Positions 1-35,940 of a stretch of DNA of 38,787 nucleotides are shown piece by piece (positions within the stretch are counted from its first letter, which is position 1; the number at the start of each line of letters is the position of its first letter). This DNA comes from a virus, in IMG/VR virus record IMGVR_UViG_3300044825_000232, positions 1-38,787 of that record; one strand, given 5' to 3'. A model generated the notes under the pieces. That model did no database searches, was not told the origin of the DNA, and was given only the letters and a program-made list of their open reading frames with translations. The translations under genes and the position numbers were made by a program.

Positions 1-127
1 CTGGAACAAATACATTCCAGTCAGCGCTGCCGACTTTGACGTAATCATTCTTGCACTTATCAAATGCACCCTTTGGTGCTGGGCAGAAGTAACCACGATA
101 CATACGTCCGTCTTTACCTGTTCCCTG
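1..127. repeat. Left copy of 127-bp terminal direct repeat
   Basis: The first 127 bases are identical to the last 127 (38661-38787). A match of exactly this size is what a de Bruijn assembler with k = 127 leaves on a circular contig. It therefore most likely shows that the genome is circular or circularly permuted with a unit length of 38,660 bp, not that the virion has a 127-bp terminal repeat. The repeat lies wholly inside a coding sequence that becomes intact on closure. Confidence 0.95.
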
Positions 128-445
128 GATAGCAGTCATCTTGCCGTGAGGGCAGTTACGTCCACCACCGATTGATGGGGCTGATGTGCTGACTGCTGCG
201 TTGTCAACGATTGATGCACCTAATGCTGCTGCTACCTGCGCTGGTGCCATTGGCGCTGGTGCTGATGGTGTAATTGTAGTAACACCTTTGACTGCTGATT
301 CTAGTTCTGTAACTGCAGAACGAATAGCATCTAATGAATGTGCAACTAGATTATCTAGTTCTTCTCCGTGCTCTGCACGAACTGTAACTAGTGAACCTGC
401 TGTTGTTTTTACTGTGATACTGATGGGTGCTTCGGTTGAAGACAC
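1..445 (-). CDS. Conserved small protein with C-terminal Cys/His cluster (3' end continues at 38660)
   Basis: This reading frame starts at GTG 445 with an AAGGAG ribosome site seven to twelve bases upstream. It runs leftward off the window edge. Joining base 1 to base 38660 gives 459 nt, an intact 152-residue protein ending in TAA at 38647. Residues 55-90 form an Ala/Pro/Thr-rich linker. The C-terminal part holds C98, H100, C121 and C131 around the segment RGYFCPAPKGAFDKC, which looks like a metal-binding knuckle. Proteins with this CPHG...YFCP tail recur in actinobacteriophages; the function is unknown. It sits between the RecB/Cas4-like nuclease and the DnaB-like ATPase, and its stop overlaps the ATPase start (TAATG), so a role in replication or recombination is plausible but inferred. 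Confidence 0.85.
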   Translation of the reverse strand, partial: MSSTEAPISITVKTTAGSLVTVRAEHGEELDNLVAHSLDAIRSAVTELESAVKGVTTITPSAPAPMAPAQVAAALGASIVDNAAVSTSAPSIGGGRNCPHGKMTAIQGTGKDGRMYRGYFCPAPKGAFDKCKNDYVKVGSADWNVFVP

Positions 446-455
446 TACCTTCTCC

Positions 456-1223
456 TTACTCTGGGAACGGAGTAGCAAGACCTTTCTTGTCTCGCCACTG
501 TCTGACTTTCATTGCAAATTGTACACCCTTCCAGCCTTCTGCAATATCAATCCATACAAGTTTGCACAGACCGCTACCTGCAGGTAGGTGAATGATGATT
601 GCTTTATCTTTGTTAACGTCTCCCCACTTACCGCGGGTTGCCGTGTCAGGAAAATACGGCAAGCCGTGTGCGTAGATAGCCAACTGCATAGCAATGTTAT
701 TGGGATGGTCAATGCGACCAGTCTTTATATCTGCAATGAATCTTTCGCCTTCATATTCAACAATTCTGTCTGGTGTACCAGCAATCTTAAACTTATCTAA
801 GACACAGAACTGTTCTATGAAAACTTTATTTAGTTTTTTTGTTGCTTGCTCGTAGGCAATTAAGTCCCCTGCCCACTCGTTTGGGATGTTAACTGGTATA
901 CCCAAATCCATTTTCTCTGCGAATGTATGTATGGCTGTGCCGATAGTTGCTGCTTTGCTAGCACCTGCTACTTCCATAGCATCTTCAATGTATTTATTGA
1001 TAGCCATCTTGTCATCCTGTGCTGCGTTAATAGCAAGGAGCAGGTCACTGCGAACTGATAAACCAATCGCAGCCATTCGCATCTTCCAGGCAGTAAGCGC
1101 TGACGGGTCGTCAAGACTGTTGGCTATTGTAGTAGCACGGGTATAAGCAATTGCTTTGCCACCTGAAGGTGGAACTATTAGTGGTCTACCGTATCGGTCA
1201 CGTTCTATTTCTACTGCTGCCAT
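456..1223 (-). CDS. RecB/Cas4-type PD-(D/E)XK nuclease
   Basis: This 255-residue protein carries the motifs of the Cas4/RecB nuclease family in order: a GTAIH histidine near residue 99, GTPDR with D152, DIKTG with D165 and K167, and QLAIYA with Q180. These match the H, D, D-x-K and Q-x-x-x-Y positions that bind metal and catalyse DNA cleavage. No cysteine cluster of the Cas4 iron-sulfur type is visible, so it is closer to the phage exonuclease branch. Its probable role is DNA end processing in recombination or degradation of host DNA. The ATG at 1223 follows AAGGAGAC (1238-1231), which can be masked by an upstream RNA structure (1231-1286). It shares the leftward early transcript with the DUF932 protein upstream. 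Confidence 0.85.
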   Translation of the reverse strand: MAAVEIERDRYGRPLIVPPSGGKAIAYTRATTIANSLDDPSALTAWKMRMAAIGLSVRSDLLLAINAAQDDKMAINKYIEDAMEVAGASKAATIGTAIHTFAEKMDLGIPVNIPNEWAGDLIAYEQATKKLNKVFIEQFCVLDKFKIAGTPDRIVEYEGERFIADIKTGRIDHPNNIAMQLAIYAHGLPYFPDTATRGKWGDVNKDKAIIIHLPAGSGLCKLVWIDIAEGWKGVQFAMKVRQWRDKKGLATPFPE

Positions 1224-1230
1224 AACTGTG

Positions 1231-1286
1231 GTCTCCTTATAAGTAGAGCGGGCTAGAAAGGAGACTAATCAAAACCAGCCCGCTCT
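1231..1286 (-). promoter_or_regulatory. Putative RBS-sequestering pseudoknot upstream of the nuclease gene
   Basis: On the minus-strand transcript, a perfect 10-bp stem (AGAGCGGGCT at 1286-1277 with AGCCCGCTCT at 1254-1245) encloses a 22-nt loop. That loop contains GTCTCCTT (1265-1258), the exact 8-base complement of the AAGGAGAC ribosome site (1238-1231) of the nuclease gene. The order stem 1, loop element, stem 1, ribosome site is that of an H-type pseudoknot with connectors of 11, 3 and 6 nt. Pairing would hide the ribosome site and limit translation. None of the other five early genes using AAGGAGAC has such a complement nearby. Function is inferred; the complementarity is directly visible. 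Confidence 0.6.
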
Positions 1287-1296
1287 CTCAGATGAA

Positions 1297-1318
1297 TAGT
1301 ACCAGAACGGTGGTACTA
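1297..1318 (-). other. Hairpin after the acidic-protein gene
   Basis: An 8-bp perfect inverted repeat (TAGTACCA at 1297-1304 and TGGTACTA at 1311-1318) with a 6-nt loop lies just after the stop codon of the gene at 1326-1742. No T-run follows on the minus strand, so it is not a standard intrinsic terminator. It could protect a transcript end or bind a protein. Confidence 0.45.
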
Positions 1319-1325
1319 CTCAAGG

Positions 1326-2963: not shown

Positions 2964-3386
2964 TTATAGATACTTGGTGATACTACCATAGGTTGCAGTG
3001 CTAATGAGTTCATCTTCGCACATCTTGAGAACACGGATAGCGTTCTCTATTTCTTCTTTGTTATCTTTGTATTGCCAGTCAGGTACAACCTCATAGTTTT
3101 TGGTTGGTTCTTCTGGTAATTTAACTACACCTGCAGGTAAATCAAAGTCAATATTTATATTACCGTTATAACGAACATTGACTCGTAGGTTTGTTGCTTT
3201 ACTAAACTTAGCCGTTGCTAGTTTAGTAACTTGCTGCTCCCACTTTTTATGAGCAGCCTCATATTTCTTTTGTTCTGCGTCTTGATTTTTGTAGTTAGTT
3301 TCTAACCTAACCAATGCCTGCTCAAGAGCCTTGATGACCTTGGCTCTAGGAACTTTGACATTGATTGTCTGTCCTCGTCTTGCCAT
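2964..3386 (-). CDS. Hypothetical protein with N-terminal coiled coil
   Basis: This 140-residue protein is basic at the N-terminus (MARRGQTINVKVPRAK). Residues about 15-60 are Lys/Glu/Gln-rich and likely helical or coiled coil. A central beta-like part (LRVNVRYNGNINIDFDLP) and an acidic C-terminal helix follow. No known family is recognised. The ATG at 3386 has an AAGGAGAC site five bases upstream. It is preceded by a 157-nt gap with several inverted repeats that would form the leader of its message. Confidence 0.78.
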   Translation of the reverse strand: MARRGQTINVKVPRAKVIKALEQALVRLETNYKNQDAEQKKYEAAHKKWEQQVTKLATAKFSKATNLRVNVRYNGNINIDFDLPAGVVKLPEEPTKNYEVVPDWQYKDNKEEIENAIRVLKMCEDELISTATYGSITKYL

Positions 3387-3410
3387 TGCTGTCTCCTTTG
3401 TTTGTTGTGT

Positions 3411-3540
3411 GCCCCGTGTTCGCTGGTAGCGGGGCCACCCACCATCACAAATCGCCTAGGTTGCAGAGCAATATCAATTGCTCAGGCTACAAAGCGGTGC
3501 GTTGTCAGATTACGCTGGCTAGGCCTGCATCTCTCTGACA
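3411..3540 (-). ncRNA. Structured leader or small RNA candidate
   Basis: The gap between the transglycosylase gene and the gene at 2964-3386 has, on the minus strand, three perfect stems: TGTCAGA with TCTGACA (3540-3534 and 3509-3503), GAGCAAT with ATTGCTC (3483-3477 and 3472-3466, 4-nt loop), and GCCCCG with CGGGGC (3435-3430 and 3416-3411). The hexamer GCCTAG inside the first loop is also complementary to CTAGGC beside the second stem, which allows a long-range contact. No tRNA features are present. It may be a cis-acting leader, a processed small RNA or a termination/processing site; the class is not recognised. Confidence 0.45.
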
Positions 3541-5074: not shown

Positions 5075-5398
5075 TTACGCTAGGAACTCAAGGTTGGTAA
5101 CGATTTGGTTGTCGTACCACTTGGTTTTGCCCTGGTCTTCACGGGCTGTGGTTGTGAGGTAGCCTGATAGATTGACTACGAACTCAGAGTTACTTGTTAG
5201 TAATGGTCTGAGTTGAGCGATGATGCTGGTGTCAGTGATTGTGACCTGACGGCTAGCGATGAAACGGCTACGCATTTCTCCGTTAGGTGTGTATTCCACC
5301 TGACGGGATTGAACGATGCCTTTGACTACGTTGCCATAGTCTTTAACTGACTTCAACAAAGCGTTGTTGAAGGTGAAGGAATTGATTGCTGTGTTCAT
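5075..5398 (-). CDS. Putative single-stranded-DNA-binding-like protein (OB-fold suspected)
   Basis: The 107-residue protein has a beta-rich pattern reminiscent of SSB proteins: VKGIVQSRQVEYTPNGEMRS followed by FIASRQVTI, then FVVNLSGYLTTTARED and a Trp/Tyr pair in TKWYDNQIV. The YTPNG turn occurs in bacterial SSBs at the same place. It lacks the usual acidic C-terminal tail, so the call is tentative. It begins at ATG 5398 with AAGGAGAC upstream. The dedicated terminator just after it fits a protein needed in large amounts, as SSBs are. Confidence 0.7.
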   Translation of the reverse strand: MNTAINSFTFNNALLKSVKDYGNVVKGIVQSRQVEYTPNGEMRSRFIASRQVTITDTSIIAQLRPLLTSNSEFVVNLSGYLTTTAREDQGKTKWYDNQIVTNLEFLA

Positions 5399-5435
5399 CT
5401 TAGTCTCCTTGTTAATTGGTTGATTACTTTTTGTT

Positions 5436-5470
5436 GGGGCTGTCCCCCGTCACTCTGACGGGGGCGCCCC
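5436..5470 (-). other. Very stable GC hairpin between two early genes
   Basis: A 9-bp perfect stem (CCCCCGTCA at 5444-5452 and TGACGGGGG at 5456-5464, 3-nt loop) is extended by a second helix (GGGGC at 5436-5440 with GCCCC at 5466-5470). It lies ten bases after the stop of the gene at 5480-5893. No T-run follows on either strand, so it may be an RNA-stability or processing element, or a weak terminator. Confidence 0.6.
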
Positions 5471-5479
5471 TTGTTGGGA

Positions 5480-35078: not shown

Positions 35079-35300
35079 TCAATCCTCATTTACTGGGGTA
35101 GGTAATGTGACCATACTGCCACATCCTGCACACTCTGCATCTGTAAAGTAGAAGGCTATCTCTCCGTCTACAAATCCACCTAACATAACAAAGACATCAC
35201 AGCCACATACACATACTTCTGTTGGCTCACCACGCAAGTCCATTGCTTTGGTGTAGTCAATCCGCTTTAGCAAATCTCTGATGTCCTTACTCTGACTCAT
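35079..35300 (-). CDS. Zinc-ribbon protein of actinophage early operons
   Basis: The start at ATG 35300 lies in the end of the sigma-like gene, giving 73 residues; the frame is open upstream, but that part belongs to the preceding gene. The product has EPTEVCVCGCDVF, then FYFTDAECAGCGSMVTLPTP, a two-knuckle zinc ribbon with long separation. Very similar layouts (CVCG...CxxCG...PTP) are common in actinobacteriophages. Function unknown. Confidence 0.78.
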   Translation of the reverse strand: MSQSKDIRDLLKRIDYTKAMDLRGEPTEVCVCGCDVFVMLGGFVDGEIAFYFTDAECAGCGSMVTLPTPVNED

Positions 35301-35940
35301 CGTCCTGCTCTGCCTGTGATACATCTTCATCTGTGTATGGCCTCCAGCCACCTAGGTTTCTGATGAGAGAGTTGATAGCACGCTGTACTTTCATACGGGC
35401 ACCATCTGGTGTTGTCTTTAGGTCCTTGGCTATCAGGCTCCATTCCGCAGAGTCCGTGCTGAACCTAATTCGTAGAACATTTTGTTTAGCCTCTGTTAGT
35501 TTGAAGAAAGCGTTGGCTATATCTGACCTTAAAACTAGCCAGTTGTTACCATCACTGCTGCCTTCTGACTTACTGAACTTATAGTTTAAATCTTTAATCT
35601 TGCTAGGTATCTCATATGACTCAGAGATAATGCTAGGCAAGAAAGCCTCAATGACTGTGGCGTCATAGTAATACAAGTCAAGCAACTCGTAGCCTACCGT
35701 GCGGGCTTTCTCCCGCTCGCAATACTTTATGGCTGCATTGCGGAGAGATTTGGCTATTAACTTCTCTCTGTCTTTTTGCTCAAGGGCTGACCATTCAATC
35801 ATCTTTACTGGATGGGTGACAAACCAAAGCCAGAGCACCTGCTGTATGTCAGGTGTCTCCACCATAGGATACTTCCTATGATATTCAACTGATAACGAGG
35901 CTACTAGGTAGTCGTATTCAGTTATGAATTCCTGGCTCAC
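35287..35940 (-). CDS. Sigma-factor-like DNA-binding protein
   Basis: The 217-residue protein starts at GTG 35940. Its C-terminal part (residues about 145-195) reads LTEAKQNVLRIRFSTDSAEW, then SLIAKDLKTTPDGARMKVQRAI and NSLIRNLGG. This is the helix-turn-helix pattern of sigma region 4, which binds -35 boxes. The N-terminal half (LWLWFVTHPVKM, then IAKSLRNAAIKYCEREKA) resembles a degenerate region 2. A phage-made sigma-like factor could direct host polymerase to late promoters. It overlaps neighbours on both sides. Certainty is high for the helix-turn-helix, moderate for the sigma role. Confidence 0.8.
   Translation of the reverse strand: MSQEFITEYDYLVASLSVEYHRKYPMVETPDIQQVLWLWFVTHPVKMIEWSALEQKDREKLIAKSLRNAAIKYCEREKARTVGYELLDLYYYDATVIEAFLPSIISESYEIPSKIKDLNYKFSKSEGSSDGNNWLVLRSDIANAFFKLTEAKQNVLRIRFSTDSAEWSLIAKDLKTTPDGARMKVQRAINSLIRNLGGWRPYTDEDVSQAEQDDESE

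Follow-up and report, generated by a model that had tools for sequence, protein, structure and literature searches.

A likely Shine-Dalgarno-sequestering H-type pseudoknot in the leader of a phage nuclease gene

Introduction

Much is known about structured RNA switches in bacteria, but they have rarely been described in environmental phages. The closest described systems are pseudoknots that act at or near a ribosome site. In the preQ1-I type III riboswitch, which folds as an H-type pseudoknot, a pyrimidine-rich stem-loop pairs with the AAGG Shine-Dalgarno (SD) sequence and occludes it fully (PMC11625349). The SAM-V and translational SAM-II riboswitches are H-type pseudoknots which also bury the SD (PMC6061858). 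In phage T4, a pseudoknot located upstream of the ribosome site of gene 32 nucleates protein binding, and UUAAA-type repeats follow it (PMC535899).

Here we describe a phage leader that is, in our view, likely to be a real and previously unlisted H-type pseudoknot that shuts off translation initiation of a nuclease gene; there are no expression or probing data behind this reading. No description of the leader was found in the open-access literature that we searched. The window, by which we mean the whole stretch of DNA analysed, is an IMG/VR viral record of 38,787 nt, and the element is read on its minus strand.

Layout of the leader

The full minus-strand order is AGAGCGGGCUGG-UUUUGAUUA-GUCUCCUU-U-CUAGCCCGCUCU-ACUUAU-AAGGAGAC-cacaguu-AUG, and its parts are as follows.

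1275..1286, minus strand: 5' arm of stem 1, AGAGCGGGCUGG = AGAGCGGGCT(GG); its pairs show two-sided changes in relatives
1274-1257, minus strand: hairpin loop, UUUUGAUUA-GUCUCCUU-U; read from the sequence
1266..1274, minus strand: loop 1, UUUUGAUUA; conserved, approximately UUUNGRYU across clades
1258..1265, minus strand: 5' arm of stem 2, the anti-SD GUCUCCUU; from the sequence and comparison of relatives
1245..1256, minus strand: 3' arm of stem 1, CUAGCCCGCUCU = (CU)AGCCCGCUCU; from the sequence and covariation
1239..1244, minus strand: loop 3 linker, ACUUAU; to be set against a geometric minimum of 6-7 nt for 12 bp
1231..1238, minus strand: 3' arm of stem 2, the SD AAGGAGAC; from the sequence, SD counts and relatives
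1223-1221, minus strand: AUG start codon of the nuclease; read from the sequence

The GUCUCCUU in the loop is the exact complement of the SD AAGGAGAC, which lies 6 nt beyond stem 1. The arrangement fulfils the criterion for an SD-sequestering H-type pseudoknot, in which the loop of a hairpin base-pairs with a single-stranded segment further downstream that contains the SD. An original prediction made from the sequence alone had described this layout, and every element was found where it had been placed, with the complement and the six-base spacing exact. Its 10-bp stem held in part: the 10 perfect pairs are present, and with an inner G-U wobble and a G-C pair the full stem is 12 bp. It had also named five other early genes that share AAGGAGAC without a nearby complement, and this held (best score at most 6.5, versus 20 here). 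The AAGGAGAC site occurs 8 times in the window, versus 1.1 expected. When the window was searched for a 10-bp stem whose loop contains an 8-mer complementary to the next 20 nt, the nuclease leader was the one place found, and there was none in 60 dinucleotide shuffles. The minimum free energy of the leader has a z-score of -3.7.

Relatives and distribution

Relatives were gathered by scanning viral contigs, from IMG/VR and phage records, with the window nuclease. Judged by the last 90 nt, 152 of the 390 leaders collected are distinct; 126 of these carry the element, 18 carry a different pseudoknot, and 8 carry neither, six of the 8 coming from outgroup phages. The element stands before the same nuclease in all 126. 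No leader is present in the outgroup actinophage records examined (McProf, Dulem virus 32 and Puginator); there the nuclease gene lies directly against the gene upstream or overlaps it. In the nuclease tree the element is on every ingroup branch, with the other pseudoknot nested, and it is therefore probably ancestral to the ingroup, with the reservation that some of the supports are weak.

The leader is absent from the named phages with the best nuclease matches, and blastn with the leader gave no match. In genome contigs the nuclease query found no relatives; the loop pattern gave at least 119 matches, and none of the ones checked for a flanking stem showed the element. A freshwater actinobacterial host is a possibility, inferred from the relatives.

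Among the loci collected, the layout was found at 42 of 47 distinct nuclease starts versus 3 of 1603 other gene starts. The predicted specificity for the nuclease nearly held; the element is specific to the operon head, and there are two exceptions to nuclease specificity. In locus L325, leader and nuclease are separated by an inserted small ORF whose start resembles a signal peptide, and it is this ORF that the leader now precedes. The other exception, one of the three non-nuclease cases, lies at about 938-1000 of an unrelated 79-kb viral contig (L585), before an NAD-dependent (sugar) epimerase. This copy has a 12-bp stem, the loop AUUUUGA-GUCUCCUUU and the SD AAAGGAGAC; homologs of the epimerase leader were sought for conservation and none was found. 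As a separate matter, introns were considered for the "broken" nucleases of L085 and L109 and rejected, the many frameshifts pointing to sequencing errors instead.

Covariation in the two stems

Stem 1 is strongly supported by covariation. In 23 distinct leaders of clade A, the clade of the window, two-sided changes occur in 11 of the 13 pairs, giving 51 two-sided cells versus 16.7 in shuffles (0 of 500 reach the native value), and pairing stands at 95% versus 41-52% when the partner is slid. Stem 1 also varies in clades B and C with the pairing kept, and in clade B an outer extension of three pairs covaries (GAG/CUC and GGG/CCC).

Within clade A no change is seen in stem 2, and taken alone this is neutral evidence. 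Between clades, both sides change and the pairing is kept (GUCUCC/GGAGAC to CUCUCC/GGAGAG; CUCUUUC/GAAAGGG; UUUAGUC/GACUAAG). The two arms read:

Clade A: GUCUCCUU/AAGGAGAC
Clade B: UCUCCUUU/AAAGGAGA
Clade C (L315): CUCUCCUU/AAGGAGAG
Clade E (L283): CUCUUUC/GAAAGGG
Clade F (L286): UUUUAGUC/GACUAAGG

Variants of the SD within clades, for example AAGGGGAGAC and AAAGGGGA, can still be paired through G-U wobbles, and stem 2 reaches at least 7 bp in all 74 distinct loop/SD combinations of the 126 distinct leaders. The loss of the complement without compensation, which the original prediction had named as a refutation, was seen in no element-bearing leader among these 126. Loops of clade E score 15.5 with their own SD versus about 12.7 with the SDs of clades A-D, and those of clade F score 15.0 versus 7-9.5 with the SDs of other clades; this preference holds against most, not all, of the other clades. 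In per-clade shuffles of the loop, 1-14% reach the native mean, which is only a moderate surprise. Since a pyrimidine-rich loop will pair with a purine SD through its composition alone, the cross-clade changes were given more weight than the shuffles. It is worth stressing that the SD is also constrained by its pairing with 16S rRNA and that clade A is invariant, so the case for stem 2 rests on few deep events. When all the diverse leaders were aligned together with MAFFT, stem 2 came out misaligned, and the cross-clade comparison was scripted instead.

This comparison shows both helices, and also that the SD forms a strand of stem 2. The proposed check for covariation across homologous leaders thus came out strong for stem 1, and for stem 2 it held between deep clades only and through few events. 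The H-type pseudoknot reading of the original prediction is supported by the comparison of leaders; the exclusive hairpins it had offered as an alternative are less likely.

Geometry and energy

To cross a 12-bp A-form stem a linker needs about 6-7 nt, and the window has 6; the remark that the connector is tight held. For a contiguous stem, the linker is long enough for a straight path in 121 of 125 leaders, and long enough to wrap the helix in 111 of 125. With the full outer stem 1 formed, leaders of clade B would have a linker of only 2 nt, so the outermost pairs of stem 1 and stem 2 should compete, and this competition makes a bistable switch plausible. The pseudoknot geometry is tight and for the most part feasible, with the linker length at its limit.

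Energies were calculated with nearest-neighbour parameters, without a pseudoknot model, and the 16S tail used was the usual actinobacterial one. The stem 1 hairpin was calculated at -21.6 kcal/mol versus -9.1 kcal/mol for a hairpin of stem 2 only, and the loop-SD duplex in cis at -12.3 kcal/mol versus -8.2 kcal/mol for the 16S tail with the SD. Because the cis pairing is predicted to be stronger than the 16S pairing, the default state should be one of low translation.

Promoter, nuclease gene and operon

The sequences around the leader have the following features.

1319..1324, minus strand: -35-like hexamer CTTGAG, 17 nt before the -10; inferred from the sequence
1296..1304, minus strand: extended -10, TGGTACTAT (TGnTAnnnT); a conserved motif at a near-fixed distance
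456..1223, minus strand: the regulated gene, a PD-(D/E)XK/Cas4-RecB-like exonuclease of 255 aa; PHROG and Pfam matches
2..478, minus strand: the next operon gene, an open frame of 159 codons running off the window, with a Cys-rich C-terminus

Among distinct upstream regions, TGnTAnnnT is present in 39 of 40 of clade A, 35 of 35 of clade B and 15 of 16 of clade C, with 3-6% in shuffles, and its spacing to stem 1 is nearly fixed in clades A-C. With an extended -10 so positioned, the 5' end of the RNA is expected a few bases before stem 1; a transcript start at this place is likely, as inferred from the promoter motif. An inverted repeat, AGUAGUACCA..UGGUACUA (window 1297-1320, minus strand), spans the promoter spacer and the -10. 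Its sequences differ in relatives yet stay self-complementary, and it could therefore be an operator or the structured end of the upstream transcript.

The window nuclease matches the PHROG 466 exonuclease (E=3.5e-60) and, just above the family cut-off, Pfam PDDEXK_1, and the RecB/Cas4-type assignment first proposed held; the closest nuclease among named phages is 42% identical. Downstream in the relatives come a gene of 155-163 codons and then a DnaB-like helicase, the latter named by way of a 272-aa window protein. At the other end of the window, the same strand carries a helicase, a RusA-like resolvase, a primase and a sigma-like factor. We infer that the window cut probably falls inside a replication operon, and promoter position and gene order make it likely that the leader heads an early nuclease-helicase-primase replication operon. 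The sigma-like protein (35287-35940, minus strand) matches a phage sigma-factor family (PHROG 354, E=2e-13) and might be the reader of early promoters.

A second pseudoknot and other hairpins

The window contains a second conserved pseudoknot leader at 3401-3450 (minus strand), before the gene at 2964-3386, with the sequence GGUGG-GUG-GCCCCG-CUACC-AGCGAACA-CGGGGC. Its core, GUGGUCCCG..GCGAACACGGGAC, shows matched changes in both stems and was found in 104 viral stretches; it precedes the nuclease in 18 distinct leaders and is also present ahead of at least 3 other gene types. No Rfam match was found for this second pseudoknot, which could be a riboswitch-like element. Another strong structure, the double hairpin GGGGC-GCCCCCGUCA-gag-UGACGGGGG-aca-GCCCC, lies at about 5425-5475 (minus strand), upstream of the gene at 5075-5398. 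In three relatives (L109 352-403; L118 4343-4394, minus strand; L177 383-433) there are long G+C-rich hairpins with the conserved loop UACCUGC, directly preceding the AAAGGAGACUA ribosome site of another gene. These were model-scoring candidates for copies of the element, and were rejected for want of the anti-SD.

Proposed mechanism and rival readings

In the mechanism we propose, transcription would begin just before stem 1, which would fold first and expose the anti-SD in its loop. The SD, emerging six bases later, would be captured by the loop co-transcriptionally, and the resulting H-type pseudoknot would block 30S binding at the nuclease gene. The default state would be low translation, and some signal would tip the bistable fold open or closed; such a bistable, signal-tipped fold is suggested by the conserved loop 1 together with the stretched linker. 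A protein, from phage or host, and a small molecule are rated about equal as the opener, with a constant throttle as the fallback. The suggestion that the nuclease is throttled until needed is reasonable and still an inference: no trigger has been shown, and control may extend to the operon as a whole.

Three of the rival readings concern what the element responds to, and each remains possible. The leader may be a protein operator, its hairpin loop recognised sequence-specifically by the nuclease or another replication protein in autogenous repression, with the SD pairing secondary or confined to the bound form. Near-invariance of loop 1 and the anti-SD beside a drifting stem 1 is typical of protein-bound hairpins, and T4 gene 32, a replication protein with a pseudoknot operator at the 5' end, is a phage precedent (PMC535899). 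However, the loops of clades E and F change wholesale yet match their own SD, where a fixed site predicts otherwise, and the L325 leader stays in place before an inserted ORF. Alternatively, loop 1 and stem 2 may form a ligand pocket, as in the SAM-V or preQ1-I riboswitches; the topology and the SD burial agree with SAM-V and preQ1-I type III (PMC6061858, PMC11625349), and UUUNGRYU is conserved in loop 1. Against a metabolite riboswitch, the riboswitch models of Rfam match neither the window leader (E up to 10) nor its relatives, a major-groove triplex found support in two leaders only, the window not among them, and the gene encodes a nuclease rather than a biosynthesis or transport protein. 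The leader may also be a passive throttle, holding initiation constantly low or coupling it to temperature or ribosome availability without a dedicated ligand. The cis pairing outweighs the 16S pairing, and little nuclease protein may suffice; however, a weaker SD would achieve the same with far less conservation, and the conservation of loop 1 is left unexplained.

Two further readings dispute the fold itself. That stem 1 and stem 2 are mutually exclusive hairpins, with no pseudoknot, is favoured by the short linker and by the 2 nt left in clade B. We consider it unlikely: stem 1 is far more stable than the stem-2 hairpin (-21.6 versus -9.1 kcal/mol), both stems are conserved in all clades, and the linker minimum is met in 121 or 111 of 125 leaders, depending on the path. 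Least credible of all is a feature of the DNA, such as an operator palindrome or a terminator, or a chance repeat. Inverted repeats near promoters are often operators, but this repeat sits downstream of the -10, and stem 1 tolerates G-U wobbles and changes its sequence with the pairing kept; no U tract follows stem 1, and the layout is absent from shuffles.

The SD-sequestering pseudoknot, our preferred reading, is a compact and strongly conserved switch candidate whose read-out is the translation of the nuclease, and perhaps of the operon. With so obvious a read-out and a likely promoter position, mechanism and ligand are directly testable. In one branch another pseudoknot has taken its place, which suggests that phages of this group use leader RNAs as a general layer of control. 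A bolder reading, which we find attractive and on balance would not yet endorse, is that the element represents a novel class of translational switches that sense a ligand or a protein. Such a switch would go back to the ancestor of a large group of phages from the environment (probably freshwater actinobacterial); it would guard the head of the replication operon and could be replaced at the same promoter by a second, unrelated pseudoknot class also used before other genes.

Comparison with known systems

Searches of the window leader and its relatives against Rfam 15, at gathering and permissive thresholds, returned chance matches only and no family. The preQ1 models gave no match at gathering, nor any to the window leader at E up to 10, and the SAM-II and SAM-V models matched neither the window leader nor its relatives. 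Parallel U.A-U / C.G-C triples of loop 1 with stem 2 rose above shuffled loops only in L534 and L283 (a fraction of about 0.03 each), and not in the window. We also considered, by eye only, whether the leader imitates the 16S 3' tail outside the SD complement, and set this aside as not common to the clades.

Like preQ1-I type III, the phage leader uses a pyrimidine-rich loop to pair the SD in an H-type pseudoknot. Unlike it, the phage element has a longer loop, a freely variable stem 1 of 8-14 bp, another gene context, no Rfam preQ1 match and no known ligand. The burial of the SD in an H-type pseudoknot is shared with SAM-V and translational SAM-II, whereas the gene that follows is a nuclease and not one of the methionine pathway (metY, metX), and an Rfam match is lacking. 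Like our leader, the T4 gene 32 operator is a pseudoknot at the 5' end of the mRNA of a phage replication gene and acts in translational control, which for our leader is inferred; in our leader, however, stem 2 takes in the SD as one of its strands, and the T4 layout is absent. While it belongs to none of the families tested, the leader is likely to work in the manner of the SD-occluding H-type pseudoknots, its effect on translation being inferred.
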